Of a DNA stretch of 47,096 nucleotides, positions 1,675-46,191 are shown piece by piece. This DNA is from Elusimicrobiota bacterium (GTDB lineage Bacteria; Elusimicrobiota; Elusimicrobia; JACQPE01): positions 1-47,096 of the forward strand of contig JACQPE010000083.1 of NCBI GenBank assembly GCA_016207685.1. Reading direction: 5' to 3'. Under the pieces are notes generated by a model. That model searched no databases and was not told the origin of the DNA. It saw only the letters and a list, made by a program, of their open reading frames with translations. The position numbers and the translations under genes were made by a program. Every line of letters begins with the position of its first letter. The first letter of the stretch is position 1.

Positions 1675-4302
1675 GTGCATCTATTTCATCGTTTTCTAAA
1701 ATCTCCGGCCCTTCCTGTTTTTTTGATCCTAGGCAGTTTTTACCTGCTCATCCTTCGCCACGCTAATCCAGGCGCCTCCTTGTATCATGGGGATGCCTTA
1801 AGAATGGCCCTGGGCATTCTTCCTGTGGCCGAACACATCAAAATCCCGGAGGAATACGGACAATACGGCGCCTCAGGTTCACCCTATGGGCTTATGATCT
1901 GGATATTGGCCTTCATCACCAAAAACGTCGCCCTTTCGCTTTTTCTACCGGCGCTGGCCGCGCTCATCGCCTATTTGATCATCAGCGCCGCGATCGGCCG
2001 GCGGCTGGAAGGCACGGCCATGGCATTTTTCAGCGTTATTTTGACGTTATGCTGCCCCAGCATTGTTTTGGAGTCGCGGCTAAGCCTCTATCACCAAATT
2101 TTTACCCTAACAATCGGTGGCGCCATGATTTTGGTGAGCCTGCAAAGCGACTGGACCCGATGGAAAAAAGCATCGCTTCTAACGGCCTTGCTGGGCATTG
2201 GGCTCTTATCAGGCGCATTCAACTGCGCTCTCTTCATTCCCAGCATGATCATTGTTCTCATGCTGCGCCCAGGGAAGGGCAAAATTCAACACGGCGGCAA
2301 ATTAGCCGCGTTGCTGGCGCTGGCCGCCATATTCATGCCTAAAATAAAACAACTGGTTCAAATCTTCTCCAAAAATATTCCCACCAGCGCGGAAACAATT
2401 TGGTCATATTTGGCCATCAAAACGTTTAAGGCGATTTCTTCTATTGATTTCATTGCGGGTTCAGAAAGACTCGCCAAGCTGCTCTACGATCTTTTTTGGA
2501 GGGCGGACTCATTTTTTTATAAAGAAGCATGGCTGTTTGATTTTTTTGACCAGCCCCTGGTTCCCGCTGCCATCGGACTGCTCTTCATCGCCGGCCTCTG
2601 GCGCTCTATGGAACGCCGGGATCAAACCGACATTGCGCTCTGGGCGTTTCTCATTCCTCCGGCGTTAATGCTCGGCTTCATCGTGGATTCCTACGATGCG
2701 CATTGTGCCGTGGCTTTCATGCCGGCGATCTTGACGATGGCCGCGCGTGAAACGCATCTTTGGTGGAACCGCTTTCCTAAACTGCCGCGAATCGCCGCCA
2801 AGACGATTATTTCATCTTCCATCGCCGCCATGTTAATATATGCCTATCTTTACTGCGTCCCAACATTTGACCAAAGAAATCCCCTGGAATTCGTCGAATC
2901 CGTTGCCGCCTACGTCAACAACATCAAAAACCCCCAACGCATGGTCATTTTTCTTCCTTTTCTCCCTCACGATTGGACGGAAGCGTTTCATTTCATCACC
3001 AGATTTAAATATGCCGGAAGGGTTTTCCCGCAGCCGGTTGATCACCAGGGATTGATCGATACGGGCTTTCAATTCGCCAAGCTGCACCCCGACAATCGCT
3101 CCCTCATTTTCATTGAAGACCGCTCTTCGGATAAACGCCTGGCCAACGGCATCTTTTCTTATTACCCGCCGGACTCGATCTTTTTCAAATATATTGCCGG
3201 CATCAATGCCTATGAGCGAAAACGTGAAAATTTTCCCTCAATGACTAATTTTTACATGCCGGCCTTGCTGGAACCTCAAAAGCCCTTTATCTGGAACTTC
3301 AACAATCCTCTTAAGGGCCGCTATCAACTTTGGTGCCGTTTTAAGCCGGTGGATCCGCAATCATTGAGTATTGACGCCTGGCTAAAAACTACAAAATTAT
3401 CAACAGGCGCCAAAACCGCTTGCGGCGCCGGCAGTGAATCAAACTGTTGGAAATTCTTCGGATCGCACAAAATTAATGCCGGCAACCAGTCTTTAGTTTT
3501 AAAAAATTCAGACGCCGAAGGGGATATCAATCTTCATCAATGCCTGTTCATCAATGAAAACGAACCGATGACTTGGCCCAAAAAAATCGTCAGCCAAACC
3601 AAAACGGGAAGCTTCGCCACCGATAAAAAAGGCTTCTATGAATTCACCATCAACAGCTCGACGGACTGCATCAATATTGTGCGCGTTGACAATGAACTCT
3701 ATCCAAATTTTGTCAAAACCGTTTTTATGCGCTTTTTACCGGCCGGCAAGCACCGTATTGACGCTGAATCCTCCTGCCGGACAGATGAAACATTCAACAT
3801 AGCAATAAATCCTCTGGAAGTTATACGGAAATTGACGCCGAAAGATATCATCGCCAGCCATGGCGTCGAAATTAGCAGCGAATCAACCAAGGTCTTTTTC
3901 TCCCCGACCGAAGTTGTCAAACATCAAAATAGGGACGTTGCCAGATCTCTTGACGGCAAACTCGCTGACTCCTCATGTTATGCCACCTACCGTTTCTCAA
4001 TACCCGAGTCGGGGCCCTATGATTTATGGGTCCTGATCGAATACGGCAAAACCGCCGGGGAATTCTACTTGTCCATCAACGAAGGTCAAAAATTTAAAAT
4101 CAAACCCCTCAATATCACCTGGGGGGCGGAAAGCTACGCCCGATGGGTCAAAATAGCCTCGGTTAACTTTGATAAAAACGATTTTATTATCTCAATTGGA
4201 ACGCCGCTTTACGGTAAGGACCTGACGCTGCGCGATATTCTTATCGTTAAAACGCCGGATAGGGGCTGGTCAAAAGAAAAATCCGATTTACCAACAAACT
4301 AA
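1675..4302 (+). CDS. Large polytopic membrane protein with C-terminal extracytoplasmic domains
   Basis: Not recognised by name. Residues ~10-400 contain roughly ten hydrophobic segments resembling membrane glycosyltransferases that use lipid-linked sugars, but no catalytic motif could be assigned. The remaining ~470 residues are soluble and beta-rich. The last ~130 (around SCYATYRFSIPESGPYDLWV) resemble carbohydrate-binding-module-like sandwich domains. The start is GTG at 1675 with a possible -10 box TAAAAT at 1656-1661 and no clear Shine-Dalgarno. A perfect 11-bp hairpin follows the stop. A role in surface polysaccharide biology is inferred from the fold and the neighbouring acyltransferase only. 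Confidence 0.8.
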   Translation: MHLFHRFLKSPALPVFLILGSFYLLILRHANPGASLYHGDALRMALGILPVAEHIKIPEEYGQYGASGSPYGLMIWILAFITKNVALSLFLPALAALIAYLIISAAIGRRLEGTAMAFFSVILTLCCPSIVLESRLSLYHQIFTLTIGGAMILVSLQSDWTRWKKASLLTALLGIGLLSGAFNCALFIPSMIIVLMLRPGKGKIQHGGKLAALLALAAIFMPKIKQLVQIFSKNIPTSAETIWSYLAIKTFKAISSIDFIAGSERLAKLLYDLFWRADSFFYKEAWLFDFFDQPLVPAAIGLLFIAGLWRSMERRDQTDIALWAFLIPPALMLGFIVDSYDAHCAVAFMPAILTMAARETHLWWNRFPKLPRIAAKTIISSSIAAMLIYAYLYCVPTFDQRNPLEFVESVAAYVNNIKNPQRMVIFLPFLPHDWTEAFHFITRFKYAGRVFPQPVDHQGLIDTGFQFAKLHPDNRSLIFIEDRSSDKRLANGIFSYYPPDSIFFKYIAGINAYERKRENFPSMTNFYMPALLEPQKPFIWNFNNPLKGRYQLWCRFKPVDPQSLSIDAWLKTTKLSTGAKTACGAGSESNCWKFFGSHKINAGNQSLVLKNSDAEGDINLHQCLFINENEPMTWPKKIVSQTKTGSFATDKKGFYEFTINSSTDCINIVRVDNELYPNFVKTVFMRFLPAGKHRIDAESSCRTDETFNIAINPLEVIRKLTPKDIIASHGVEISSESTKVFFSPTEVVKHQNRDVARSLDGKLADSSCYATYRFSIPESGPYDLWVLIEYGKTAGEFYLSINEGQKFKIKPLNITWGAESYARWVKIASVNFDKNDFIISIGTPLYGKDLTLRDILIVKTPDRGWSKEKSDLPTN

Positions 4303-4312
4303 CTTCAGTTGG

Positions 4313-4344
4313 GCGCGCTGTTACAGGCAGCCATAACAGCGCGC
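4313..4344 (+). terminator. Hairpin after the large membrane protein gene
   Basis: An 11-bp perfect stem, GCGCGCTGTTA with TAACAGCGCGC, closes a 10-nt loop 10 bp after the stop codon at 4302. There is no T-run after it, so it may act in mRNA 3'-end protection or factor-assisted termination rather than as a classical intrinsic terminator. Confidence 0.5.
4314..4333 (+). repeat. 20-bp direct repeat, copy 1
   Basis: CGCGCTGTTACAGGCAGCCA matches the sequence at 5400-5419 at 18 of 20 positions in the same orientation. The two copies bracket the Phd/VapC-type module. This copy also forms the left arm and loop of the hairpin at 4313-4344. Confidence 0.5.
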
Positions 4345-4437
4345 ATCTGAAAAATTTAGGATAAAAGTAAAATAGAGATTTGACCCTAGTTCGCTAGTTT
4401 GTCTAGTTCTCTACTGGATATTGAAACTACTTCAGTG

Positions 4438-4443
4438 TATAAT
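4438..4443 (+). promoter_or_regulatory. -10 box TATAAT of the antitoxin-toxin operon
   Basis: A perfect TATAAT lies nine bases before the ATG at 4453. No good -35 is visible at 17 bp. If transcription starts 6-8 bases downstream, the mRNA would have essentially no leader, in keeping with the absence of a Shine-Dalgarno before this ATG. Confidence 0.45.
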
Positions 4444-4452
4444 GTAACTACA

Positions 4453-4755
4453 ATGCATAACTATAACTACCCTGTGCCCAATTCCTCAACCGCCGGCATT
4501 CGGCAATTAAAAGCGCATCTGAGCGCATATCTCAATCAAGTTAAACATGGCCAAGCGGTCACCATTACCGAAAGAGGTCATAAAATCGGCATTATTCTTC
4601 CTACCGAACAAAAAGAAGAACCCCCGCAATGGCTTTGGTCTTTAATTAAACAAAGCGCCATCAAATGGTCAGGGGGTAAACCGAAAGGCCTGCAAAAGCC
4701 GGTTTCTATTAAGGGCAAACCGCTATCTCAAACAATCCTAGAGAATAGAAATTGA
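4453..4755 (+). CDS. Phd/YefM-family antitoxin
   Basis: A small antitoxin of the Phd/YefM type. The N-terminal half has the family pattern IRQLKAHLSAYLNQVK, then GQAVTITERGHKIGIILP, which in relatives forms the DNA-binding and dimerisation fold. The C-terminal ~45 residues should be the flexible toxin-binding tail. The frame is open back to 4399, but ATG 4453 was chosen because it starts just before the conserved domain and sits right after a TATAAT box. The gene is followed 61 bp later by a PIN-domain toxin. Such antitoxins normally repress their own operon; no operator was identified here. Confidence 0.88.
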   Translation: MHNYNYPVPNSSTAGIRQLKAHLSAYLNQVKHGQAVTITERGHKIGIILPTEQKEEPPQWLWSLIKQSAIKWSGGKPKGLQKPVSIKGKPLSQTILENRN

Positions 4756-34958: not shown

Positions 34959-36481
34959 TAAAATTCGTCGCGCCCGGCCATCATCTTAAGAAGTTTCCAT
35001 TGTCCCTTGCGAAAAGGCTCGATGCGGCATGCCATTCGCCCGGCCCACAAGGCGTAAGGCCTCCGCACGGGAGCAACACGGCTGATTAAATACTCGAAAT
35101 AACCCCTTTGCGACCACGTCTCCGGGTTTTGCGAATCCCAGCGCAGCGAGGCCTTAAGCTCGCGGTCGATTTCCTTTTCCGCGGTTCCCGGCATCACCGC
35201 CATCATCCCAACCCATGCGCCGCTCTGCATTAATGCCGCGCGCCCCAAGGTCAACGTGGCGGCGCCGGAAAAAAGCGCCATGGCGCAAAAAACAACAACG
35301 ATCACGCCCCCTGCGTTCCCGGCAGGCTTTTGGGCCGCACTTTTGTTTAGGCTTGCGTGCGAAGCCGTAAGAGCGACAAAAACAAGAAAAATGGGCAATA
35401 GAAAATGGCTGGACTCAAAAATCCCTGATAACGCGAAAATCCAAAGGGTTGCTGAAAGACTCCACGAAAAGGGCCGCCGGCGCAGATATAAATGCCTGCA
35501 GGAATAAATCAACCAGCAAATCAAAAAAACACCGATGAGACCATATTGACATAAGTATTCTACGGCCGCATTATGACTCAAAATCGAACGAAGCCCAGAC
35601 GAGTCCCCGTGATAAATAGGATACGCCGAAGCAAAGCCGCCTAAATGAGCGACGCCCAGCAATGGATGGTCAAGAAACATCAGCCATCCCGCGCGCGTCC
35701 AGTGCAGCCGCTGCGTTAAAGACTGCGGCCCCGTGGAGCCACCGATGGCCATCGCAAAAAACAATACGCCCAACATGGCAGCTAAAATAAAAATCTTAGG
35801 GCCAAAACGTTCCTTCAACAAACGCCTTGCTCCAATGACAAGTCCCATCAACGCCACCGCGCCAACCATCGAGCGGCTGCTCAGAAGTGAAACGGCCGCA
35901 ATCGCCACGACGCCACCATAAAACCAAAAAATCCGACCATCCCTGTTGCGGTTCTCCTCAAGCCAAAATTCAATCGCCGTCGGTAAAATAAGGCCTAAAT
36001 ACACGGCTAAAATGTTCTGATTCGCCAGCGCCAAATGCCTTGCTTCGCTGTGACTAAAAATCCATCGAGCGCCGATCCAAATGCATGAAACAATCCAGGC
36101 CCCGGCAACAGCCAAAAAACGAATTCCCCGGACACGCTCCGGAGAACAGGCGGCATCCTCATTGACGCGCTCGATCAGAAGGCAGCCGAACACAAGACAA
36201 ACGGCAATTCCGAGAGCCTGCTCCCACATCCAGCTTGTCGTGCGCCAAGCCGAGCATAAACAATAAACAATCAAAGCGCCCCAGGGCCTAATATCAACCG
36301 CTTCAAAACGGCGTTTTGCGCTTAACATCGAGGCGGCCAAAATCACCGCTGCGATAAAACATAAAATAAACGGCCCCGTAACTTTCGGTGCTAACCCATA
36401 AAGAGACGGCGCCGTCAAAAGCGGCAAAAATAACAAAAAATCTTTGGGGTGAATTGTCAGCGGCTGATCAATATCAGTCAA
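34958..36481 (-). CDS. O-antigen ligase / Wzy-family membrane protein
   Basis: A polytopic membrane protein with about a dozen hydrophobic segments and the Wzy_C/WaaL signature RSILSHNAAVEYLCQYGLIG in its periplasmic loop. Members polymerise O-antigen, ligate it to lipid A or transfer glycans to proteins such as pilin (PglL/PilO type). It starts with TTG 36481 and overlaps the pilQ stop by eight bases, so it is translated with the pilus operon. A pilin-glycosylation role is therefore worth considering, but the sequence alone does not separate ligase, polymerase and oligosaccharyltransferase. Confidence 0.85.
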   Translation of the reverse strand: MTDIDQPLTIHPKDFLLFLPLLTAPSLYGLAPKVTGPFILCFIAAVILAASMLSAKRRFEAVDIRPWGALIVYCLCSAWRTTSWMWEQALGIAVCLVFGCLLIERVNEDAACSPERVRGIRFLAVAGAWIVSCIWIGARWIFSHSEARHLALANQNILAVYLGLILPTAIEFWLEENRNRDGRIFWFYGGVVAIAAVSLLSSRSMVGAVALMGLVIGARRLLKERFGPKIFILAAMLGVLFFAMAIGGSTGPQSLTQRLHWTRAGWLMFLDHPLLGVAHLGGFASAYPIYHGDSSGLRSILSHNAAVEYLCQYGLIGVFLICWLIYSCRHLYLRRRPFSWSLSATLWIFALSGIFESSHFLLPIFLVFVALTASHASLNKSAAQKPAGNAGGVIVVVFCAMALFSGAATLTLGRAALMQSGAWVGMMAVMPGTAEKEIDRELKASLRWDSQNPETWSQRGYFEYLISRVAPVRRPYALWAGRMACRIEPFRKGQWKLLKMMAGRDEF

Positions 36482-38345
36482 CGATTTTAGGCGTCACAAA
36501 CACTAAAAGTTCGGTTCTTGGCTCATTCAACGACGTTCGACGAAAAATCCAGCCGATAAGCGGTAAATCACCCAAAAACGGCACCTTAGTTGTTTGTCTA
36601 TCTTTCAGTTCGGTAATCAAACCGCCAATAACGGCCGTCTCGCCATCTTTCACAATGAGCGTCGTTGAAGCCGTGCGTGAATTGATCGCCGGCGCCAGCC
36701 CCGGAATGCCGCCGGTTGATCCCACTTGGCTGACAGTGGGCGTAATTTTCATCCGAATGTAACCATCTGAAGTAACCACGGGGGTCACCGCCAGCATCAC
36801 GCCCACGCTAAGATAAGAAACGCTCTGCGTCGTTCCCACGCCCGGCGAGACCGTCGTCTGCACTGTCGGCACTTGGCTGCCCGCTGATATGGTGGCCGGC
36901 TGGTTGTTCAACGTGACAATTTTCGGATTGGAAAGAACCTTAAGCTTTCCTTCGCGGGCCGCCAGCGTCAATGCCGTCGTTAAAAAAGAGGTGTTTGTCA
37001 CGCGTCCAAAGGCAAATCCGAGCGATGTGACGGCCGTTCCTCCGGCCGGAAGGCTTAATCGAAGAGGATTGTCCGGCATCACACCGTCAGCGCCGCCGAT
37101 GGGTTCGGCGCTGTTAGGGTCGAAACTGCCCAGCGATTGCCGGTCTACTTTATCACCGGAGCTTCGATCCCAAGACTTGGCGTATTGCCACTCGATGCCG
37201 TAATCAAGCGCCTTATCTATCTGCAAATCAATCACCTTGGCCTCGATAGAAACGGCTTTAGGCCGGGCGTCCAATTCTTTAATGAGCTTGGCCGTCTGCA
37301 ATAAGCCATCTTCGGTATCGACCACGATCAATGCGTTGATATCATTGGCGATCAAAATGTTGCCTTTACGGCCCTCCAATTGGCGGATAGCGTCCAAATG
37401 CGTTTTCATTTCGGAAGCCGCGATATAATTCAAAACAAAAATCCTCGTGAACGTAATGGCTTGCTGCTTCTCGGCCAAATAGGTATTCGGACCCATGACC
37501 TTAATGACATTGGACCCCGTCTGCAGGGCCACCATCTGCTTCATGGATAAAACCGTCTGCCAAACCTCCCGAAACGGCGTCTGCTTGAGCTTAAGCGTAA
37601 TCATTCCCGAGACATCAGATGCCGTAATCAAATTAACTTTGCTGCCGGTTAAAGCCTCCAATTTTTCAATCATGATGGTTAAAACGATTTTCATGTCAAC
37701 ATCTTGGAAATTCACATCAATCGGTGAACCCGGAAGCTCCGCTAAGATATCATGAACGCGCGCCGGCTCCCGGGAAGGCGCCGCCGGCGCTTGAGCCGGT
37801 TCTCGGGAAACATCCGATACAATTTTAGGAGACGGACCCTTGCCCGTGTCATCCAAAAAAAGCGTCACCAATCCCTCGGTTTCTTGGGTTTGGAAAGGGG
37901 TTGCCCGGCCCAAATCAACCACCACGCGCGCGACGCTTTCCGGGGCGCTGGCAAACTGCGCCACGCGAATATCCTCGATTAATCCGGAAGAATCTTTGGG
38001 CGCCTTGAACTTCTCGGCAAAACCGGCAGGCACCCATGTGTCATAAAATTCGAGAATGACTTTCGGCGGCCTGCTGACGGCGAAAGCCTTATATTTGGCC
38101 TCCTTGCCGTCTAGATGAACTCGAATTTTTTGCGTCTCCATCTCAATTCCGGAAAGCTTCGTCGCCGCCCGCCAAGTTTCCGCCGCAAAGGAGCCGCGGG
38201 TTGCGAGTTGCGGGTTCAAAGCTAGAAAAGCCAGCCCAAAAACTAAAAACGGATAGCGGATCTTAAGCAAGCGCAAATTTAAAAAAATTTTTCTATTTTT
38301 TCCGCTAACGCGCAACTCGCAACGCGCAACGCGCAACCTCTTCAC
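36474..38345 (-). CDS. pilQ: Type IV pilus secretin PilQ
   Basis: The outer-membrane channel of the type IV pilus. After the signal peptide comes an AMIN-like domain (~55-160), then STN/N0 (PIDVNFQDVDMKIVL), a secretin N1-type domain (FVLNYIAASEMKTHLDAI) and the C-terminal secretin domain (NPKIVTLNNQPATISAGSQV, VKDGETAVIGGLI, DLPLIGWIFR). The start GTG at 38345 overlaps the pilP stop (GTGA). The first ~20 codons and a stretch just after the hydrophobic core are made of a dispersed repeat. It is followed by the O-antigen-ligase-family gene. Confidence 0.97.
   Translation of the reverse strand: MKRLRVARCELRVSGKNRKIFLNLRLLKIRYPFLVFGLAFLALNPQLATRGSFAAETWRAATKLSGIEMETQKIRVHLDGKEAKYKAFAVSRPPKVILEFYDTWVPAGFAEKFKAPKDSSGLIEDIRVAQFASAPESVARVVVDLGRATPFQTQETEGLVTLFLDDTGKGPSPKIVSDVSREPAQAPAAPSREPARVHDILAELPGSPIDVNFQDVDMKIVLTIMIEKLEALTGSKVNLITASDVSGMITLKLKQTPFREVWQTVLSMKQMVALQTGSNVIKVMGPNTYLAEKQQAITFTRIFVLNYIAASEMKTHLDAIRQLEGRKGNILIANDINALIVVDTEDGLLQTAKLIKELDARPKAVSIEAKVIDLQIDKALDYGIEWQYAKSWDRSSGDKVDRQSLGSFDPNSAEPIGGADGVMPDNPLRLSLPAGGTAVTSLGFAFGRVTNTSFLTTALTLAAREGKLKVLSNPKIVTLNNQPATISAGSQVPTVQTTVSPGVGTTQSVSYLSVGVMLAVTPVVTSDGYIRMKITPTVSQVGSTGGIPGLAPAINSRTASTTLIVKDGETAVIGGLITELKDRQTTKVPFLGDLPLIGWIFRRTSLNEPRTELLVFVTPKIVD
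38194..38338 (-). repeat. Inverted repeat inside the pilQ signal-peptide region
   Basis: GTTGCGAGTTGCG (38200-38212) and CGCAACTCGCAAC (38311-38323) are perfect 13-bp reverse complements 98 nt apart, each within a run of similar seven- to nine-base units. The whole block is translated in frame as the PilQ N-terminus: RLRVARCELRV before the hydrophobic core and NPQLATRGS after it. Confidence 0.75.
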
Positions 38346-38950
38346 GGCTTGCCCTGTCCTTCCTTTGAGGGAAATGAGAGCACCGCCATCATTGGTTCCC
38401 CTTGCACACGCTCTATAATGACATTTTCTTGTTCAACACGCGCCCTATAAGACGCCAAAACCAATCCCGTGGCGATATGCTTAAGCTTAAAACCATGGAC
38501 AATGAAACTATCTTCAGGATTTGAGACCATGGATAAGAGCGCCATCGGTTCTCCGCGCACATGATCAGTCATTACCGCTTTTAAAATCAAATCATCAACG
38601 CTGAGCGCTTCCTCAATTTCCTTAACCGACGCATACTTCGTCGCGGAGGAACCGCCCGAAGCGCGTGAGTCGCCCCCCGAACCTCCAAACGCAATCGCGA
38701 TAAAAGGATCTCTCATGTTGCGCGCCTTGTAAACGTAAGACGCGGCCGAAGTCGCCGTGCTCAAGGCCGCGGATCCTTCAGCGTGCAAGAATGACCCACA
38801 TGCTCCGATAGAGACAAGGACCAATAAAAAATGCCGAATGCCTAATCTTGCAATCTCGAACGACGAATTTCGAATGACGAATAAAAAGGATTCCTTAATT
38901 TGACATTCGAGATTCGACATTCGAGATTCGCTCATTTCTAAATTCGTCAT
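38342..38950 (-). CDS. pilP: Type IV pilus inner-membrane lipoprotein PilP
   Basis: PilP links the PilNO complex to the secretin. The conserved ARNMRDPFIAIAF and the C-terminal beta domain (LSVDDLILKAVM ... GEPMMAVLSF) match the family. SIGAC within LLVLVSIGACGSF is a plausible lipobox. AAGGAAG in the end of pilO lies about nine bases before ATG 38950, so translation starts there and reads through a dispersed repeat, adding ~38 residues before the signal peptide. No other good start exists downstream. Its stop overlaps the pilQ start. Confidence 0.88.
   Translation of the reverse strand: MTNLEMSESRMSNLECQIKESFLFVIRNSSFEIARLGIRHFLLVLVSIGACGSFLHAEGSAALSTATSAASYVYKARNMRDPFIAIAFGGSGGDSRASGGSSATKYASVKEIEEALSVDDLILKAVMTDHVRGEPMALLSMVSNPEDSFIVHGFKLKHIATGLVLASYRARVEQENVIIERVQGEPMMAVLSFPSKEGQGKP
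38826..38950 (-). repeat. Dispersed AT-rich palindromic repeat, copy B (in pilP)
   Basis: Second copy of the family seen at 33891-34010, in the opposite orientation. The 51-bp part at 38852-38902 aligns with 33957-34007. Its ATG, at the element edge, is the pilP start codon. The repeat encodes the first ~38 residues of PilP in an open frame. Confidence 0.75.
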
Positions 38951-38953
38951 TTT

Positions 38954-39520
38954 CTAGCTTCCTTTGTACTGAAACGTCACCAAAGTCAAATTAGCGCTGA
39001 TGCTCACCCATGGTTCATTGGCCGTGGGCGGGGATGGAGAAATACTGACTCCTCGGGCATGAAAAATTCGTTCCGTCTCCCCCATGGCCGCTAAAAATAG
39101 AGCTAAATCGTGGTACGAGCATGTCACCGTTAACCCAAAGGGAATTTCATAATAAAGCTCGCTGCTGGTGATGCCCTGCGGGTTGATCGAACCCATGCGA
39201 ATTCGGAAGCGCCTGGTCAGTTGGTTGATCGTCTGGAGTATCTGTGGCAAATTTTTCTTATCGGGAAGTTTCGCTCGCAGAAAAACCCAAGTTTTTTCAG
39301 CCTGGTCAATTTCACTAACGAGCCTCTCCCGATTTCTCGCTCTGCGATCGAGATCGTCAACGCGTTTGCTTAATTCAGAAATTTTGGCCTTATCGGCTTT
39401 TATTTTCTTGAGAGTAGGCCTTAAGAAATACTGCACATAACCGAAGGTCACCATGCCCGCCATTAAAACGACGGCCAAAATCGTCTGCTGCTGTTGTTTG
39501 GTTAGCTTGATTTTGGGCAT
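38954..39520 (-). CDS. pilO: Type IV pilus assembly protein PilO
   Basis: A bitopic inner-membrane protein: one N-terminal membrane helix (ILAVVLMAGMVTFGYVQYF), a coiled-coil stretch (KADKAKISELSKRVDDLDRR) and a small alpha/beta C-terminal domain with QILQTINQLTRRFRI. It forms heterodimers with PilN. One base separates it from pilN, and its 3' end carries the Shine-Dalgarno of pilP. Confidence 0.92.
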   Translation of the reverse strand: MPKIKLTKQQQQTILAVVLMAGMVTFGYVQYFLRPTLKKIKADKAKISELSKRVDDLDRRARNRERLVSEIDQAEKTWVFLRAKLPDKKNLPQILQTINQLTRRFRIRMGSINPQGITSSELYYEIPFGLTVTCSYHDLALFLAAMGETERIFHARGVSISPSPPTANEPWVSISANLTLVTFQYKGS

Positions 39521-39521
39521 A

Positions 39522-40067
39522 TTAGTTTGGCGGAACCACGGTAAACTTTATCGGGAAACTAACCTGATTTTCCGAACTGCTGATGGCGCCCAAACTGACT
39601 TTTGTAACCTCCGGCATGGACTCGAGACGCTCGAGCCAACGAATAACCGTATCGATGTTTAATGCAATGGCCTGCAGAGAAATTTCATAGCCTTCCATCG
39701 TCTTGCTGGTATTCATGCCGGCAAACCACACCTGGCCCGGCGGCAATCCTTGCACGATAATTTCCATGATCTTTGGATAATCCACACGGCCGACCAGCAG
39801 GGCGTTGACCACATTATTTTTGGAATCAATCTGCTGTTTTTTGCTTTCAAGCTGATCAACCTCTAAGGCAATGGCCTCGAGCTGGACAATGCGATTTTGT
39901 AGGGAGCCCGCTTGGCCGGCCAAGGCCTTGGATTTCATGCTTAAGGTTAACGTCACTGCCCCCACGACAGCGACCACTAGGGCCGCCGCGGCGGCGGCCA
40001 TTGTGGTCGTGCTGCGCTTTTTCTCTCGCTCAATGTATTCCCTGGGAACTAAATTAATCCTAATCAT
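39522..40067 (-). CDS. pilN: Type IV pilus assembly protein PilN
   Basis: PilN family: the N-terminal MIRINLVPREYIEREKK binds PilM, then one membrane helix (AAAAALVVAVVGAVTLTLS) and a periplasmic coiled coil leading to a ferredoxin-like domain. Length 181 aa is typical. It lies six bases after pilM and one before pilO. Confidence 0.95.
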   Translation of the reverse strand: MIRINLVPREYIEREKKRSTTTMAAAAAALVVAVVGAVTLTLSMKSKALAGQAGSLQNRIVQLEAIALEVDQLESKKQQIDSKNNVVNALLVGRVDYPKIMEIIVQGLPPGQVWFAGMNTSKTMEGYEISLQAIALNIDTVIRWLERLESMPEVTKVSLGAISSSENQVSFPIKFTVVPPN

Positions 40068-40073
40068 GGAGCA

Positions 40074-41231
40074 TCAGCCTTTCTTCCAGTCCATCCACAC
40101 CCTCATGCCCAGCCCGCAAGCCACGCTAAAAAGCGGTCCTGCCTCAAAAGACGCTTGCGCCTCCGCAGGCGGCGCCAGCAGGCTGAAAGGGTTAAAAAGT
40201 TCAACAGGCATGCTCATTTGACTGCCCGCAAAAGGAATCAAATTCTTTAACAGCGATCCCCCTCCGGTTAGATAAATCCTATTAATCGATCGTTCCACGC
40301 CGTGCGTTAAATAAAAATCGACGGATTTGCTGATCTCCCCAAAAAGGTCGCTGGCCACGCCGCAGCAAATTTCTGAAATCTTGAGCTTTTCCTCTCCATC
40401 GGAACTAGACGAAAGCTTCGCCTTCTCGGCTTCATCCAGAATAATGCCCACCTCGTGTTTAGCCTGAAGCACCTTGGCAATCTCCCAACCCATGGCATTG
40501 TGCAGCGCTCGCGTGAAGGCCGAACCGGCCACGGCGACATCGCGCACGAGCCTCGGCGTTCCTTTTTCCAAAATCGCAAGATTTGTCACCGTTTCGCCGA
40601 TATTGCAGACAATAATCGTTTCACGCAAAATTTCAGGTTTTAAAGACATCAAATTGGAGAGCGCAAAAGCGTCGACATCCACCACGGCCGGCGAAAGTCC
40701 GGCTATAGAAAGAACGCCTAAACGATTTTCAATCAAATCCTTCTTTGCGGCCACTAATATCGTCTCATACTTGCGTTGGCCCTCTTCGGTGATATCGCTG
40801 ATAATATGGTAATCCAGGCTCACCTCCTTGATGTCAAAAGGAATGAAAGGTTCCGCCTCAAAACTCAATGATTTTTCAAGCTCCTCATGCGGCAATGCCG
40901 GAAGCTTGGCTTCGCGCACTATAACCGAACTGCCTGATATATTCGTCGCCACCAGCGCATTTTTGATCTTTGTCGCTTCAAAAAGCGCTCGAACCTCCCG
41001 GCCAATAAAGGAATTCCTTTCTTCGCCCTCCATAGGAAGGTCTTGAGCCGGCACCTCTCTTGAAGCCGCCGCTTCGATAACCCATGACGGACCTGATAGT
41101 TTCATGCTGATCAATTTAAGAGAAAAAGTGCCGATATCAATGGCGACCATCGGCTTTGATGGCCCTGCCAACGTCTTGGCGCGTTCGGCAAACGACTTAA
41201 TTTTTTGAATGATCTCTTCTTTTCTACCCAT
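40074..41231 (-). CDS. pilM: Type IV pilus actin-like protein PilM
   Basis: A cytoplasmic, FtsA/actin-like ATP-binding protein that anchors PilN. MVAIDIGTFSLKLISMK is the phosphate-1 motif; IVCNIGETVTNLAILEKG and RIYLTGGGSLLKNL complete the nucleotide site. ATG 41231 (MGRKEEIIQ) is chosen because the longer frame runs into a dispersed repeat. A promoter candidate lies about 130 bp upstream, so pilMNOPQ and the glycan genes may be transcribed independently of the pilin. Confidence 0.95.
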   Translation of the reverse strand: MGRKEEIIQKIKSFAERAKTLAGPSKPMVAIDIGTFSLKLISMKLSGPSWVIEAAASREVPAQDLPMEGEERNSFIGREVRALFEATKIKNALVATNISGSSVIVREAKLPALPHEELEKSLSFEAEPFIPFDIKEVSLDYHIISDITEEGQRKYETILVAAKKDLIENRLGVLSIAGLSPAVVDVDAFALSNLMSLKPEILRETIIVCNIGETVTNLAILEKGTPRLVRDVAVAGSAFTRALHNAMGWEIAKVLQAKHEVGIILDEAEKAKLSSSSDGEEKLKISEICCGVASDLFGEISKSVDFYLTHGVERSINRIYLTGGGSLLKNLIPFAGSQMSMPVELFNPFSLLAPPAEAQASFEAGPLFSVACGLGMRVWMDWKKG

Positions 41232-41237
41232 CGCCGC

Positions 41238-41335
41238 TCTCTCTGAAAAGTAACGCATATCGAGCGATGAATGACCCCGGAGGAAAAACATCTCTTATTT
41301 CCATGCGCTCGTTACTCATCGTTAGTTAATCCTCA
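41238..41335. repeat. Imperfect palindromic repeat between pilD and pilM
   Basis: The left side (AGTAACGCATATCGAGCGAT) and the right side (GCGCTCGTTACTCATCGTTA) consist of similar short units in inverse order, resembling the arms of the other dispersed repeats but without the AAATTAAGGA core. It occupies most of the pilM leader. Confidence 0.4.
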
Positions 41336-41357
41336 CTGATCCCATATGGACGTGTCG

Positions 41358-41386
41358 AGTGTATCAGGGGAGACTGGATAATTCAA
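41358..41386 (-). promoter_or_regulatory. Promoter of the pilMNOPQ unit
   Basis: On the minus strand TTGAAT (41381-41386), a spacer of exactly 17 bp and TACACT (41358-41363) form a housekeeping-type promoter, with TGA just before the -10 giving an extended -10. The -35 overlaps the pilD stop codon. A start point near 41351 would leave a ~120-nt leader containing the palindromic repeat before pilM. Confidence 0.6.
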
Positions 41387-42210
41387 GAGGAAATGATAAA
41401 AATTAGGCGTTTAAAGATCGCGGGGCCCATCCAAAGCAAAATAATTGCGGCCACCGATAAAAACGGCCCATACGCGATCGGGTCGCGTCTTCCCAGGCGC
41501 TTCAAAGCCAACAAAGGCAAGGCATAGGCCAAGCCCAAGGCCGATGAGACCGCCACCAAAGGCACCAAACTGCGCCAGCCCAGGGCGCCAACGATTGCAG
41601 CCGCCAATTTGACGTCTCCCCCTCCCATTGCTTCAACTTTATAAATTTTTTTTCCGGCCGCGGCAAAGAGCCAATAAATCCCGCCGCCGGCGATCATGCC
41701 TCCCAATGAGCCCGCCATTCGTCCGAGCGGTGAAACGCCCAATAATTCATTGGCAGGTGACGCCAAAAACATCACCAGACACAATCCCAGGCTTAAAAGA
41801 TCGGGAATAGTATAAGTTTGCCAATCAATCGCGGCAACGGCCAAAAGCGCCGTTTGAAAAAAACAAAATGAAAAAAGCATCACCCACTGCGCCATCGAGG
41901 AAGGCGGATATCTGGATGCGACAATCACGGAGCATAACATTGAAACAACCTCCACCCACAGATACTGGAATGCGATTCGCCGGCCACAACAGCGGCCTCG
42001 GCCGCGTAAAATCAAAAAACTGATAATGGGAATGTTATCCAACGGCTTGATAGAACTGCGGCAATGCGGGCAATACGAATAGGGCGGCGCCCAGGGCAAT
42101 TCACCCTTAGGCAATCGCCAAATCAACACATTGGCGAAACTTCCAAATATCGCGCCAATAATAGCGCCAAAAATTAAATGCAGCTTTATAAGTCCAAGGC
42201 CCCCCGCCAT
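41383..42210 (-). CDS. pilD: Prepilin peptidase (A24 family)
   Basis: Inner-membrane aspartic peptidase and methylase that processes prepilins at the G-F bond. GAIFGSFANVLIWRLP is the N-terminal signature, with CPHC in the first cytoplasmic loop; the second cysteine pair is reduced to RCCGRR, unlike the usual spaced pair. The catalytic aspartates lie in DWQTYTIPD and GGGDVKLAAA. The only suitable start, ATG 42210, is the first codon of the 3' arm of a 14-bp hairpin. It follows the pilin gene and precedes pilM. Confidence 0.94.
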   Translation of the reverse strand: MAGGLGLIKLHLIFGAIIGAIFGSFANVLIWRLPKGELPWAPPYSYCPHCRSSIKPLDNIPIISFLILRGRGRCCGRRIAFQYLWVEVVSMLCSVIVASRYPPSSMAQWVMLFSFCFFQTALLAVAAIDWQTYTIPDLLSLGLCLVMFLASPANELLGVSPLGRMAGSLGGMIAGGGIYWLFAAAGKKIYKVEAMGGGDVKLAAAIVGALGWRSLVPLVAVSSALGLAYALPLLALKRLGRRDPIAYGPFLSVAAIILLWMGPAIFKRLIFIISS

Positions 42211-42228
42211 GGGAATGGCGGGGGGCCT
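42197..42228 (-). promoter_or_regulatory. 14-bp hairpin containing the pilD start codon
   Basis: AGGCCCCCCGCCAT (42197-42210) and ATGGCGGGGGGCCT (42215-42228) are perfect reverse complements around a four-base loop. In the pilin transcript this forms a very stable stem just after the pilin gene; the pilD ATG is in its 3' arm and would be occluded. There is no following U-run, so mRNA stabilisation or a translational block fits better than intrinsic termination. Confidence 0.75.
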
Positions 42229-42237
42229 CTCAAAACA

Positions 42238-42260
42238 GGCCCACCTTCTGAAGATGGGCC
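42238..42260 (-). terminator. Second hairpin after the pilin gene
   Basis: GGCCCA and TGGGCC enclose further pairing (CTTC with GAAG) with one mismatch. It lies 16 bp beyond the pilin stop, directly upstream of the 14-bp hairpin, and may add to 3'-end stability or polarity. Confidence 0.45.
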
Positions 42261-42276
42261 GAACAAGCAGTCAATT

Positions 42277-42747
42277 TTAACGGTTGTTCCAAATGACAGA
42301 CTTGCTGTCATTGTGATTGCAACCAACATAGAAGTGTCCCCAGTTGACCGCCGTATTTTCGTTGATGTACTGCCACTGGCCGCTATCCGTCGTCGATGAG
42401 AATTCCGTCCCAACTGCTACGGTCGAGTTGTTGCCATGGCCCGGATTGTTGACTGACGTAAACGGAGGCACCATTACTTCCGGCATCTGCTTGAGGTATT
42501 TCTGGCCCGCTGACAGCACCGACATGTCATCCAATGGATTAATGCCGTCGCTATCTCCATAATAAATGGAGAGCGCGCTGCGCACGGAAGACATATTGCC
42601 GCGGGTCTTGCCCTCTTGAGCTTTCTTCACTAGGTCGGCGAACTTGGGGATCGCGATTGCCGCGAGAATACCGATGATTGCCACCACGATCATAAGTTCG
42701 ATCAAGGTGAAACCCCGCTCGCCAGACCGATGCGAATGCTTCATCAT
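42277..42747 (-). CDS. pilA: Type IV pilin / pseudopilin-like major pilin
   Basis: A short basic leader MMKHSHRSGERG is cut before FTLIELMIVVAIIGILAAIA, giving the typical hydrophobic helix with Glu5. A globular domain of ~120 residues follows, containing only one cysteine (VGCNHND), so no usual C-terminal disulfide. AGGGGGG lies upstream of ATG 42747. The frame continues to 42858, but that part has no pilin character. GspG-like layout is also possible; location beside pilD and pilMNOPQ favours the pilus subunit. Confidence 0.93.
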   Translation of the reverse strand: MMKHSHRSGERGFTLIELMIVVAIIGILAAIAIPKFADLVKKAQEGKTRGNMSSVRSALSIYYGDSDGINPLDDMSVLSAGQKYLKQMPEVMVPPFTSVNNPGHGNNSTVAVGTEFSSTTDSGQWQYINENTAVNWGHFYVGCNHNDSKSVIWNNR

Positions 42748-42882
42748 TTTTATCACCCCCCTCATCAAAGAACAATCGCCGCTGGGGCTTGGGGAGCCCT
42801 TAACCGGCGCTTCTAGGTTAGCGATTATCAAAGTCAAATGCAAGGTGATCGCGCTCACATTGGCGGGGAGCTATCTAAAAAA

Positions 42883-42948: not shown

Positions 42949-43142
42949 CTGACCTCCTTGAAGGAGCCGATCAAAATCCCTGTTTCATCTCTTAAGCCAT
43001 GCCCTGAAAATCCCATGAGCGAAATTTAAATTTTACCGTCGGATTCTTTTTGTTCCCAAAAAATTGTCTGAACTCCCCGGAAAATTCTTCCGGCTCCCCT
43101 GGCGCCCGCTTAAAAGGGGTGTTAATTTCAAAATTAATGAGC

Positions 43143-43239
43143 CGGTAGATTTCACCGAAAAGGCAAACCCGCGGCAACGCGGGGACGCAAAGTCATGGAC
43201 CCCTGCACCCTGGGCCTCTTGGGGGCCGCCAGACTGCCG
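43143..43239 (+). ncRNA. GEMM-I (cyclic di-GMP-I class) riboswitch aptamer
   Basis: The class hallmarks are all present: GGCAAACC (43162-43169), a P2 stem CCCGCG / CGCGGG closed by a GCAA (GNRA) tetraloop, ACGCAAAG (43185-43192), and a P3 stem GGACCCC (43197-43203) with GGGGGCC (43221-43227). The ends close as P1: CGGTAG (43143-43148) with CTGCCG (43234-43239). The ligand should be cyclic di-GMP or 3',3'-cGAMP; the base that decides between them cannot be assigned with certainty without alignment. It lies 60 bp upstream of an exported-protein gene. Confidence 0.9.
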
Positions 43240-43278
43240 AAGGATCAGCAATGGATGCTGCGGCAGTCTGGTTTTTTT
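43229..43278 (+). terminator. Intrinsic terminator overlapping the riboswitch P1
   Basis: CCAGACTGCCG (43229-43239) pairs perfectly with CGGCAGTCTGG (43261-43271), with a further inner CAGCA/TGCTG stem, followed by seven T (43272-43278). Its 5' arm contains the 3' strand of the aptamer's P1, so aptamer closure and terminator formation exclude each other: ligand should prevent termination. Confidence 0.9.
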
Positions 43279-43298
43279 GTTTTTGAGGGAGGGAAATT

Positions 43299-45275
43299 TT
43301 GGGTTTAAGGAGACGTTTGGGGCCGGCATTGTGGCTGGCGGTTTTGGCCGTCCCCGGCTCATTAACAGTTTTCCCTGCCCTTGCTTCGGACATCGCCTCC
43401 TGGGTTATTCCCTCCGGAGGCGCGCTGGGTCAAGGAGCCTTTCAGGCAATCACGGTTGGTCAAGCCGTGGCCGCGCCTTCCGCAGGTTCAATCGCGGGTC
43501 TGGGCTTTGCCCCCACCATCCGCCCCATTGATCTTATGCCTCCAAGGACCTCTTTGCTTCTGGGCTTGCCCAAGTTTCAAGACTCCCAAGGGCTCCTGTT
43601 CATCGCTTCAAGCGCTGTTGCGGCCTTGGCCTCTGTTGATGATCTCCTTGAGATCGCAGACCAAGAGGGGACCGGGGTTCTCGAGCAAAGACTCTTTATT
43701 GACTCCTTGTTAAAAGCCGTATTCTCCAATACTTCTGATCTGCCCACTCCTGGTGATAAACGCGGGCAGGTGTTGACCTCGAGCTTCACCCTGGCCTTGG
43801 AATCCGAGGGCCTCCATCTCCTGGGTTTCTTCGCCCAAGACGCCTTGGGCAACGCGGAGAGCCTGATCACCCAAACGATTGCCCTTGATAAGACTCCTCC
43901 GGTGACCAGAGTCTCCCTGGGGCCATTGCAGCAAAACGTTTTCGGCATCGCCCTTGTTTCCACATCCAGCCTGATCACGCTCGAATCCCTGGACCCTGTT
44001 TCAGGAGGCGTGGCCTGCGGCGTCAAGGCGATTGAATTTAAGATCGAGACCTTAAGCGGGGTCAATGCCGCGACTTCGGGATTTCTTGCCTATGTCTCTG
44101 CCTTCTCTTTGCCCCAGGGAACCCATCGCATTAGTTTCCAAAGCATGGATCAGGTGGGCAATAAAGAACCAGAGAAAAGCATCGTTGTTGCGGTGAGCAT
44201 GCTTGAGGCCGCTGCTCTGACCGGAGTCGCCGGCGTTGAAGCCTCGGGAACAGCCGACATCAGGGGCGGTATTTTTTCCAATGGGGAGGTTTCCCTTAAA
44301 GGAACGGTCAATGTCACGGGTTCCGTGGCCGCTTCCACGATTAGCGTTACGGGCAATGGCTCCATTGCCGGTGAGCGTCGCATCAATGCCCTGACCTTGG
44401 AGGAGGAGCCTATGTCCCTGGCCCTGATGCTTGAAACCGCATCGCTCCATAACGATAACAATCTTATTCCTTCAAAATTTTTAGACCCTGATAGCGCCCT
44501 GCGCGTTGATTCCCAAAAAACCTTGGTCTTGGGCACGGGGACCTATCTTGTCTACGGCTTGACGATCTTAAGCCAGGGTTCCCTTGAAACTCAAGGTCCT
44601 GTCAATCTCTTCATTCAGGGGCCCCTGAGCATCGCCGGAGGCGGTCTCCTTAAGAGCCGGGGAAACCCGCAAGAGCTTTTTATCGCAGTGGCAGGGACCC
44701 ATAGGGTCTTCTTGGGAGGCGGCGCTTCGGCTTCCTTAACGCTCTACGCCCCCCGATCCGGCATCAGCCTGCAAGGCAACGCCTCAGTCACAGGACATCT
44801 ATGGGCCCGCCATGTGACAGCCCAGGGGACCTCTATGGTCATTCAAGCCCCGGAGGCGCCATCCCCTGCATTAACTCAAACAACTCAAAGAACATCCCCG
44901 ACCCCATCATCAGGCAAGGGCAACGGCTTCAAGACCGCCTCGCAGGAAGCCTCCCTGCCGGATAAGGCCTTTGCCCTGCGGGAAGTCTTTGTGTTTCCCA
45001 ATCCCTCCAGGCAGGGCCAAAAGCCTGTTTTCCATGTGGAAGCAGGCCTGGCCCAGGGCCTGGTGATCACTATCTATGACTTGAGCGGCGAGATGCTCTA
45101 CCGCAGGGTGTTGAATGCAACCCCTCAAATCATCGCCAGGGGCGCAGCGCCCCAATACGCCTATGAATACACCCTTGAGGAACCTTTGCCCACGGGAGTG
45201 TACCTCTATCTCATCGAAGCCCAGTGGGACAATTTGGCCCTCAAGCGAGCCGGGAGGTTCAGTGTTGTTAGATAA
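43299..45275 (+). CDS. Exported multidomain protein with T9SS-like C-terminal domain
   Basis: The signal peptide (LWLAVLAVPGSLTVFPALAS) is followed by two OmpL47-like Ig repeats (roughly residues 75-195 and 195-300, each with an xALDxxxPxT-like start and DxxGN end), a repetitive beta region (~310-530, GGIFSNGEVSLKGTVNV) and a C-terminal sorting-like domain (FVFPNPSRQGQKPVFHVEAG, LPTGVYLYLIEA). The C-terminus resembles type IX secretion/FlgD-Ig domains. Start TTG 43299 follows GAGGGAGGG. Expression is probably set by the riboswitch upstream. It may be a surface adhesin; function unproven. Confidence 0.88.
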   Translation: MGLRRRLGPALWLAVLAVPGSLTVFPALASDIASWVIPSGGALGQGAFQAITVGQAVAAPSAGSIAGLGFAPTIRPIDLMPPRTSLLLGLPKFQDSQGLLFIASSAVAALASVDDLLEIADQEGTGVLEQRLFIDSLLKAVFSNTSDLPTPGDKRGQVLTSSFTLALESEGLHLLGFFAQDALGNAESLITQTIALDKTPPVTRVSLGPLQQNVFGIALVSTSSLITLESLDPVSGGVACGVKAIEFKIETLSGVNAATSGFLAYVSAFSLPQGTHRISFQSMDQVGNKEPEKSIVVAVSMLEAAALTGVAGVEASGTADIRGGIFSNGEVSLKGTVNVTGSVAASTISVTGNGSIAGERRINALTLEEEPMSLALMLETASLHNDNNLIPSKFLDPDSALRVDSQKTLVLGTGTYLVYGLTILSQGSLETQGPVNLFIQGPLSIAGGGLLKSRGNPQELFIAVAGTHRVFLGGGASASLTLYAPRSGISLQGNASVTGHLWARHVTAQGTSMVIQAPEAPSPALTQTTQRTSPTPSSGKGNGFKTASQEASLPDKAFALREVFVFPNPSRQGQKPVFHVEAGLAQGLVITIYDLSGEMLYRRVLNATPQIIARGAAPQYAYEYTLEEPLPTGVYLYLIEAQWDNLALKRAGRFSVVR

Positions 45276-46191
45276 GCCCCATGCCTCAAGTCTCCCGTGC
45301 CTTGCCTTTGTCTTATTTTTCCTTCCCTCGCCCATCTTGTGCCAATCCTCCTCCGGCTTCTCCTTTTTGAAAATCAGCGTGGACGCGAAATCCGAGGGTC
45401 TCTCCGGAGCCTATACCGCCATGAGCAATAATGTAACGAGTCTCTACTGGAACCCGGCGGGATTGGCTTGGGTCAATAAAAAAGAAGTCTTGGCCACTCA
45501 TTCAGAGTGGCTCTTGGGGTCCCGGTTCGATTTCCTGGGGGTAGGCATCCCATTGTCAAAATTTAAGGGCTCCCTGGGCCTTGGGGTTTCCATGCTTTCT
45601 CAAAAAGAGCAAGAGGGAAGGGATGAACAAGGCAACAAAACAGGGAGCTTTCCGGCCAATGATGGGGCATTGACTTTGGCTTTGGGCCGCAAGATCAGCT
45701 TATCCTCCCAATGGGGCATGGGCTTGAAGCTCATCCGCAGTCAAATCGCCTCGGACATCGGCCAGGGTCTTGCCCTTGACCTTGGGGTCCGGCATGGTCA
45801 TCGTTTCAACCGGATACCTCTTACCTTGGGAGTCTCCATCTTGAACCTTGGGCCGGGCGTCACCTTCATTGATGAGCCCACAAAATTGCCTTTGACATTG
45901 GCCGCTGGCCTGGCCATTGAGTCCTGGGGAGCGTTTGCCCTGTCGGCTGATTGGCGTTACCGTGTTGATGATCAAAAAGTTCTCTGGGCAGCGGGGACGC
46001 AATACTCCCTTTCGCCTGGTTTTTCCTTAAGAACGGGATATGGCATCACGGATAAGACGGGAGAAGACATTGTATCCGGTCTTGGGCTAGGCTTTGGGAT
46101 TAGTCTTCGGGGATACCAGTTGGACTACGCCTTCACCCCGATGGGAGACTTGGGCAATGCGCATAAGTTCAGCTTGGGAGCGAGGTTTTGA
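45262..46191 (+). CDS. PorV/PorQ-like outer-membrane beta-barrel protein
   Basis: After a signal peptide (SLPCLAFVLFFLPSPILC) the protein begins with ISVDAKSEGLSGAYTAMSNN and SLYWNPAGLAWV, the opening typical of PorV/PorQ and FadL-related barrels. Alternating strands continue to the end LGARF with terminal Phe. PorV works with type IX secretion to attach cargo. The frame is open from 45115, but GTG 45262 or TTG 45265 follow GGGAGG, and the first overlaps the stop of the preceding gene by 14 bases. The two genes form one coupled unit under the riboswitch. Confidence 0.9.
   Translation: MLLDKPHASSLPCLAFVLFFLPSPILCQSSSGFSFLKISVDAKSEGLSGAYTAMSNNVTSLYWNPAGLAWVNKKEVLATHSEWLLGSRFDFLGVGIPLSKFKGSLGLGVSMLSQKEQEGRDEQGNKTGSFPANDGALTLALGRKISLSSQWGMGLKLIRSQIASDIGQGLALDLGVRHGHRFNRIPLTLGVSILNLGPGVTFIDEPTKLPLTLAAGLAIESWGAFALSADWRYRVDDQKVLWAAGTQYSLSPGFSLRTGYGITDKTGEDIVSGLGLGFGISLRGYQLDYAFTPMGDLGNAHKFSLGARF

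Follow-up and report, generated by a model that had tools for sequence, protein, structure and literature searches.

The element at 43153-43242 of the forward strand is a real GEMM-I riboswitch aptamer by every feature of its sequence testable here, and it probably serves as a c-di-GMP-I (GEMM-I) transcriptional ON switch for an exported protein and a PorV-family outer-membrane protein encoded directly downstream. It lies in the window (the whole stretch of DNA analysed, 47,096 nucleotides), which is contig C43 of the Elusimicrobiota genome G000 (2.37 Mb, 202 contigs). Such a switch would tie cyclic dinucleotide signalling to apparent type IX-type surface-secretion operons in a phylum most of whose members are uncultured, and its ON direction is a prediction testable from the sequence.

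The class of the aptamer was established with covariance models. A cmscan of the window returned a single RNA family, RF03167 (c-di-GMP-I-GGC), at 43153-43242 (+), with 66.5 bits (E 1.2e-13) against a cut-off of 59 bits. The RF01051 (GEMM-I) score of the same aptamer is 63.5 bits, which is significant against the curated cut-off of 35, and a class model, R1, gives 73.1 bits; a preliminary description of this DNA, which had recognized a GEMM-I riboswitch from the bases, was therefore right about the class. The three-way junction P1/P2/P3 with its conserved GGCAAACC and GACGCAAAG core is present. According to the class alignments, the P1 5' strand (CG, 43156-43157) pairs with 43238-43239, which makes P1 a helix of 2 bp, to which C43153-G43242 may add a third; P2 is a 6-bp hairpin with a GCAA loop (43168-43183), and the basal 5' strand of P3 (43191-43194) pairs with 43232-43235, all on the forward strand. 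In the class structure (14 pairs, 96 relatives), pairing holds in 97% of cells, and the covariation is 0.456 versus 0.157 in shuffles and at most 0.073 in slid controls, a figure biased in the structure's favour because the alignment was fitted to that structure. The window riboswitch adds one more example to an already known type. One other, weaker aptamer exists in genome G000 (L002, C181:253-366, 43.7 bits), before a PorV-family gene; no paper combining Elusimicrobia, riboswitches and c-di-GMP was found in the open literature searched.

The ligand can be predicted from the pocket, which alignment to the class reads as G20 (43162), A47 (43189) and C92 (43237), all on the forward strand and accompanied by G21-C46; positions follow the Vc2 numbering. 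Known structures show C92 paired with the ligand. G at position 20 is the c-di-GMP-type selectivity base, and A20, the mark of the GEMM-Ib (cGAMP) aptamers, is absent from the window aptamer. The preliminary description had named a cyclic dinucleotide as the ligand, which fits the class but is too broad, since G20, A47 and C92 together predict c-di-GMP, not cGAMP. This prediction depends chiefly on position 20: the G20A change has been linked to cGAMP (PMC6274999), and the role of this position has published support from cGAMP riboswitches (PMC8835794).

Among the 137 relatives, the pocket triplet is G/A/C in 99, A/A/C in 33, G/G/C in four and A/U/C in one. RF03167 is the best-scoring family for the window (66.5 bits), yet position 47 is G in its consensus and A in the window. 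The Rfam name "GGC", which we take to mean G20/G47/C92, was consequently rejected as a guide to ligand specificity. The four G47 aptamers (L002 254-366, L059 257-371, L089 2450-2565, and L158 2466-2637 on the reverse strand) are found one per genome of the window's family (G000-G003) and do match that consensus.

Another possibility is that the same ON switch responds physiologically to 3',3'-cGAMP, either instead of c-di-GMP or in addition to it, and we consider this unlikely. A20 occurs in 33 of the 137 class aptamers (e.g., L028, L047, L073, L052, and L088), so aptamers of the predicted cGAMP type are probably common in the class and in Elusimicrobiota, but A20 is absent from both aptamer matches of G000, and the window itself has G20, A47 and C92. 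Genome G000 encodes GGDEF, HD_5 and PilZ proteins, in favour of a c-di-GMP switch; none of its proteins matched EAL. One of the three GGDEF proteins, L035 (C128:4084-4560), has GGEEF and GHEMGN motifs with N in place of the guanine-selecting residue (D344 in PleD numbering), whereas L034, with canonical N/D residues and GGDE, resembles a canonical c-di-GMP cyclase; the third, L036, has a GGDDF motif. Point changes outside position 20 can also shift selectivity, and other changes in P2 are known to alter it (PMC9262584).

The expression platform of the predicted c-di-GMP switch is an intrinsic terminator (43229-43278, +). It comprises a stem of 11 Watson-Crick pairs (43229-43239/43261-43271), with one further G-U pair possible, an inner stem of 5 bp (43246-43250/43256-43260) and a U7 tract (43272-43278), so the perfect 11-bp stem, inner stem and seven T of the preliminary description are all there. 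Its 5' arm, 43229-43239 (+), is the switch strand, which also contains the P3 3' strand (43232-43235), C92 (43237) and the P1 3' strand (43238-43239), and aptamer and terminator are mutually exclusive. This exclusion had been noticed previously but attributed to the wrong helix. CTGCCG does lie at 43234-43239; it had been taken for the P1 3' strand and for the centre of the terminator 5' arm, whereas Rfam and the 137 aptamers place the P1 3' strand at 43238-43239 only, and the hexamer sits at the loop-proximal end of the arm. The real overlap consists of the P3 3' strand, C92 and the short P1. The riboswitch had likewise been started at 43143, about 10 nt before the aptamer. A 6-bp helix between 43143-43148 and 43234-43239 is possible, outside the conserved aptamer; as aptamer P1, it was rejected because it would occupy C92 and the P3 strand.

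The frequency of such an arrangement was estimated by shuffling, with dinucleotides kept, the 60 nt 3' of the aptamer: a T-tailed stem of at least 11 bp over C92 appeared in 50 of 20,000 shuffles of the window. Across the class, C92 is covered by a T-tailed stem of 8 bp or more in seven of the 137 loci, whereas 200 rounds of shuffling gave 0.7 such loci on average and never more than 5; the terminator-sharing design is thus present but uncommon. A consensus terminator scan missed the window terminator because of its long loop, and a direct pairing search was used instead. The strand-sharing platform of the window is also found in L185, L052, L088 and others. A base triple formed by the P3 5' strand, the switch strand and the terminator 3' arm reads U/A/U in the window (43193/43233/43267) and C/G/C in L185, L052 and L088; therefore, the three strands change together. 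L052 (2537-2651) and L088 (2462-2551) are terminator-sharing A20 aptamers, the former before an RNB-domain exoribonuclease (2900-4522) and the latter before a CsgG/FlgO-like protein (2668-3609). Many other class aptamers directly precede a start codon and look, from this position, to be translational controls. At many loci among L003-L027, the aptamer ends 0-10 nt before the start codon of an ORF of about 500 aa, often PorV-like, and lacks an obvious ribosome-binding site, so that control there is probably translational.

The strand sharing suggests how the switch might operate. RNA polymerase would make the aptamer first, and c-di-GMP binding before about 43263 is transcribed would lock P1, C92 and P3; with 43229-43239 then unavailable, the terminator would be blocked, and the gene for the exported CTD (C-terminal domain) protein and the PorV-family gene would be transcribed. 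Without ligand, 43261-43271 would pair with 43229-43239, and transcription would stop at the U-tract. In the energy model, mean terminator pairing is 0.001 in a transcript ending at 43261, 0.26 once 43264 is reached and 0.97 in one ending at 43267, and the end-state energies are -58.8 kcal/mol for the terminator versus -40.7 kcal/mol for the ligand-free aptamer. This difference of about 18 kcal/mol in favour of the terminator means that a simple equilibrium would not do and that control would have to be kinetic.

A very similar architecture is that of the pilM riboswitch of Geobacter metallireducens (GEMM-Ib, cGAMP, transcriptional ON; PMC9262584), which has the GEMM-I fold in common with the window. 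In both, the strand that closes the aptamer is part of the terminator, so that the two structures exclude each other, and the terminator sequesters the ligand-contacting C (PMC9262584). In pilM, C75 pairs with G102, 27 nt away, binding-competent transcripts extend from about 77 to 101 nt, and switching has been argued to be kinetic (PMC9262584); in the window, C92 (43237) lies 26 nt from its terminator partner (43263). The pilM switch differs in its cGAMP-type ligand base (versus G20), its phylum and its target genes, and it is a studied ON switch, whereas that of the window is predicted. The ON direction proposed in the preliminary description is supported as the best reading, and the strand-sharing ON mechanism is not new, being already that of pilM. 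The Cd1 c-di-GMP-I riboswitch of Clostridioides difficile resembles the window in aptamer class, predicted ligand and transcriptional control, but its terminator can form while ligand is bound and has an antiterminator as its competitor, and it is an OFF switch, opposite in direction to the window (PMC9262584).

It is very unlikely that the aptamer is degenerate and blind to its ligand, the element being a plain constitutive attenuator or terminator. P1 is short and the J1/2 linker is 1 nt shorter than in most relatives, but the same shortening is found in L002, L185 and L151, three models (RF03167, RF01051 and R1) score the aptamer highly and the pocket bases are all kept. There are also strong competing folds: in the energy model, the best fold of 43139-43242 contains the 43143-43148 helix (-37.4 versus -29.9 kcal/mol for the aptamer), and the isolated aptamer fold lies above the minimum for RNA from 43150 too (-29.9 versus -32.5 kcal/mol). 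According to this model, the upstream helix, if transcribed, would compete with ligand binding. The stretch 43143-43152 may be part of the transcript; a sigma-70 scan gave no promoter on the forward strand, and the transcription start of the riboswitch was not found. Against a ligand-blind element stands, finally, genome G002, where the same strand sharing precedes a comparable operon. An OFF switch, in which 43143-43148/43234-43239 would be a ligand-free antiterminator removed by ligand binding, is scarcely credible: until transcription reaches about 43261, this helix is the most favourable fold, but 43143-43148 lies outside the conserved aptamer and may lie outside the transcript, the terminator displaces the helix in the ligand-free full transcript (pairing of at most 0.01 from 43264 on, energy model), and ligand binding itself occupies the terminator 5' arm, so that removing the helix by binding would free no terminator.

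The genes that the ON switch would control begin with a candidate ribosome-binding site, GAGGGAGGG (43285-43293, +), 5 nt before the TTG at 43299 that opens the gene for a 658-aa exported protein (43299-45275, +; DUF7305, 43.9 bits). The C-terminal 104 aa of this protein (44961-45272) score 24.0 with TIGR04183 against a cut-off of 23, versus 18.7 for the whole protein, and with this marginal type A sorting-domain score it looks like a T9SS-type CTD cargo. The start of the next gene (45265-46191, +) overlaps the end of the first; its product, a PorV/PorQ-family outer-membrane protein, scores 156.4 with NF033709 (cut-off 90) and is weakly matched by the solved PorV 6h3i, which agrees with the target that the preliminary description had proposed, an exported protein followed by a PorV-like one. 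Type IX secretion in Bacteroidota relies on CTD cargo and a PorV shuttle (PMC5562754), and the window likewise pairs a type A-like CTD protein with a PorV-family barrel, although, unlike in Bacteroidota, the CTD score is marginal and a genome has multiple pairs of cargo and PorV. Directly upstream of the riboswitch lies a divergent type IV pilus cluster (36474-42858, -) encoding a pilin, a prepilin peptidase, PilM, PilN, PilO and a secretin, and surface-polysaccharide genes are also among the divergent neighbours.

The association with PorV extends beyond the window. A PorV-family gene is present in the examined downstream DNA of 44 of the 137 class aptamers, while a riboswitch-bearing genome typically carries just 10-25 or so such genes, which points to an outer-membrane regulon. 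The window type of operon recurs, on sequence grounds, in other families: the combination of riboswitch, CTD protein and PorV is present in G002 (L185), G009 (L186), G092 (L182), G089 (L183) and G017 (L184). In L185, the aptamer is of the single form, its C92 is covered by a terminator, and the CTD protein is preceded by an additional ORF. In L184, the start codon comes 13 nt after the aptamer, and control there looks translational instead.

In at least 14 relatives (L182, L183, L186, L187, and L206-L215), ten of them identified when 295 genomes of the phylum were searched with a pattern, a single 5' half is followed by two tandem copies of the aptamer 3' half; this duplication is absent from the window. 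Examples are L182 155-338 (+), L183 4695-4904 (-), L186 4057-4300 (-) and L187 2722-2899 (-). The duplicated unit comprises GCC-GG, the P3 strand and C92-C93-G94-AA, and at most of these loci the terminator takes its 5' arm from the distal copy; in L199-L201 and L203, only the stretch from about C92 onward seems to be used. An alignment of 13 loci shows 100% of cells paired between the shared 5' strand and the distal copy, and 98.7% between that strand and the proximal copy; the sole informative pair changes from U-A to C-G with both copies, which is thin covariation among related sequences. Judging from complementarity, the pairing partner available to the spacer differs between loci, being the P3 5' apical strand in some and the proximal 3' half in the rest of those read. 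The next gene encodes a CTD protein in 11 of the 14 loci and PorV directly in one (L187); in L207 and L208 it encodes a giant protein with repeats like those of the window's protein, whose end lies beyond the DNA examined. PorV is seen in 11 of the 14. Among the pattern matches, L202 was rejected as a riboswitch because the aptamer 5' half is absent upstream, and L188-L190, L204 and L205 were put aside because of the sequence matched.

One 5' half could thus close either of two complete aptamers, of which only the distal one would block the terminator. Proximal closure would leave the terminator free (OFF) and distal closure would prevent it (ON); with this logic, the response to one ligand might be decided kinetically or be of a band-pass type. 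A general reading, which we hold in even balance, is that CTD-cargo/PorV operons of Elusimicrobiota are placed under a terminator-sharing GEMM-I switch that exists in a simple form (the window and L185) and in a two-aptamer form with a duplicated 3' half, proximal OFF and distal ON. No report of a duplicated 3' half was found in the open papers searched, nor anything relevant on overlapping or alternative aptamers in the open literature searched. The relatives with this duplication are a more novel lead than the window, and they offer a natural comparison of a simple ON switch with a two-aptamer switch on one type of operon. Two complete GEMM-I aptamers also occur in tandem or close together in L005, L080, L096, L171, L085 and L055; the tandem complete aptamers (L005, L080, L096, and L171) were counted separately from the loci with a duplicated 3' half.
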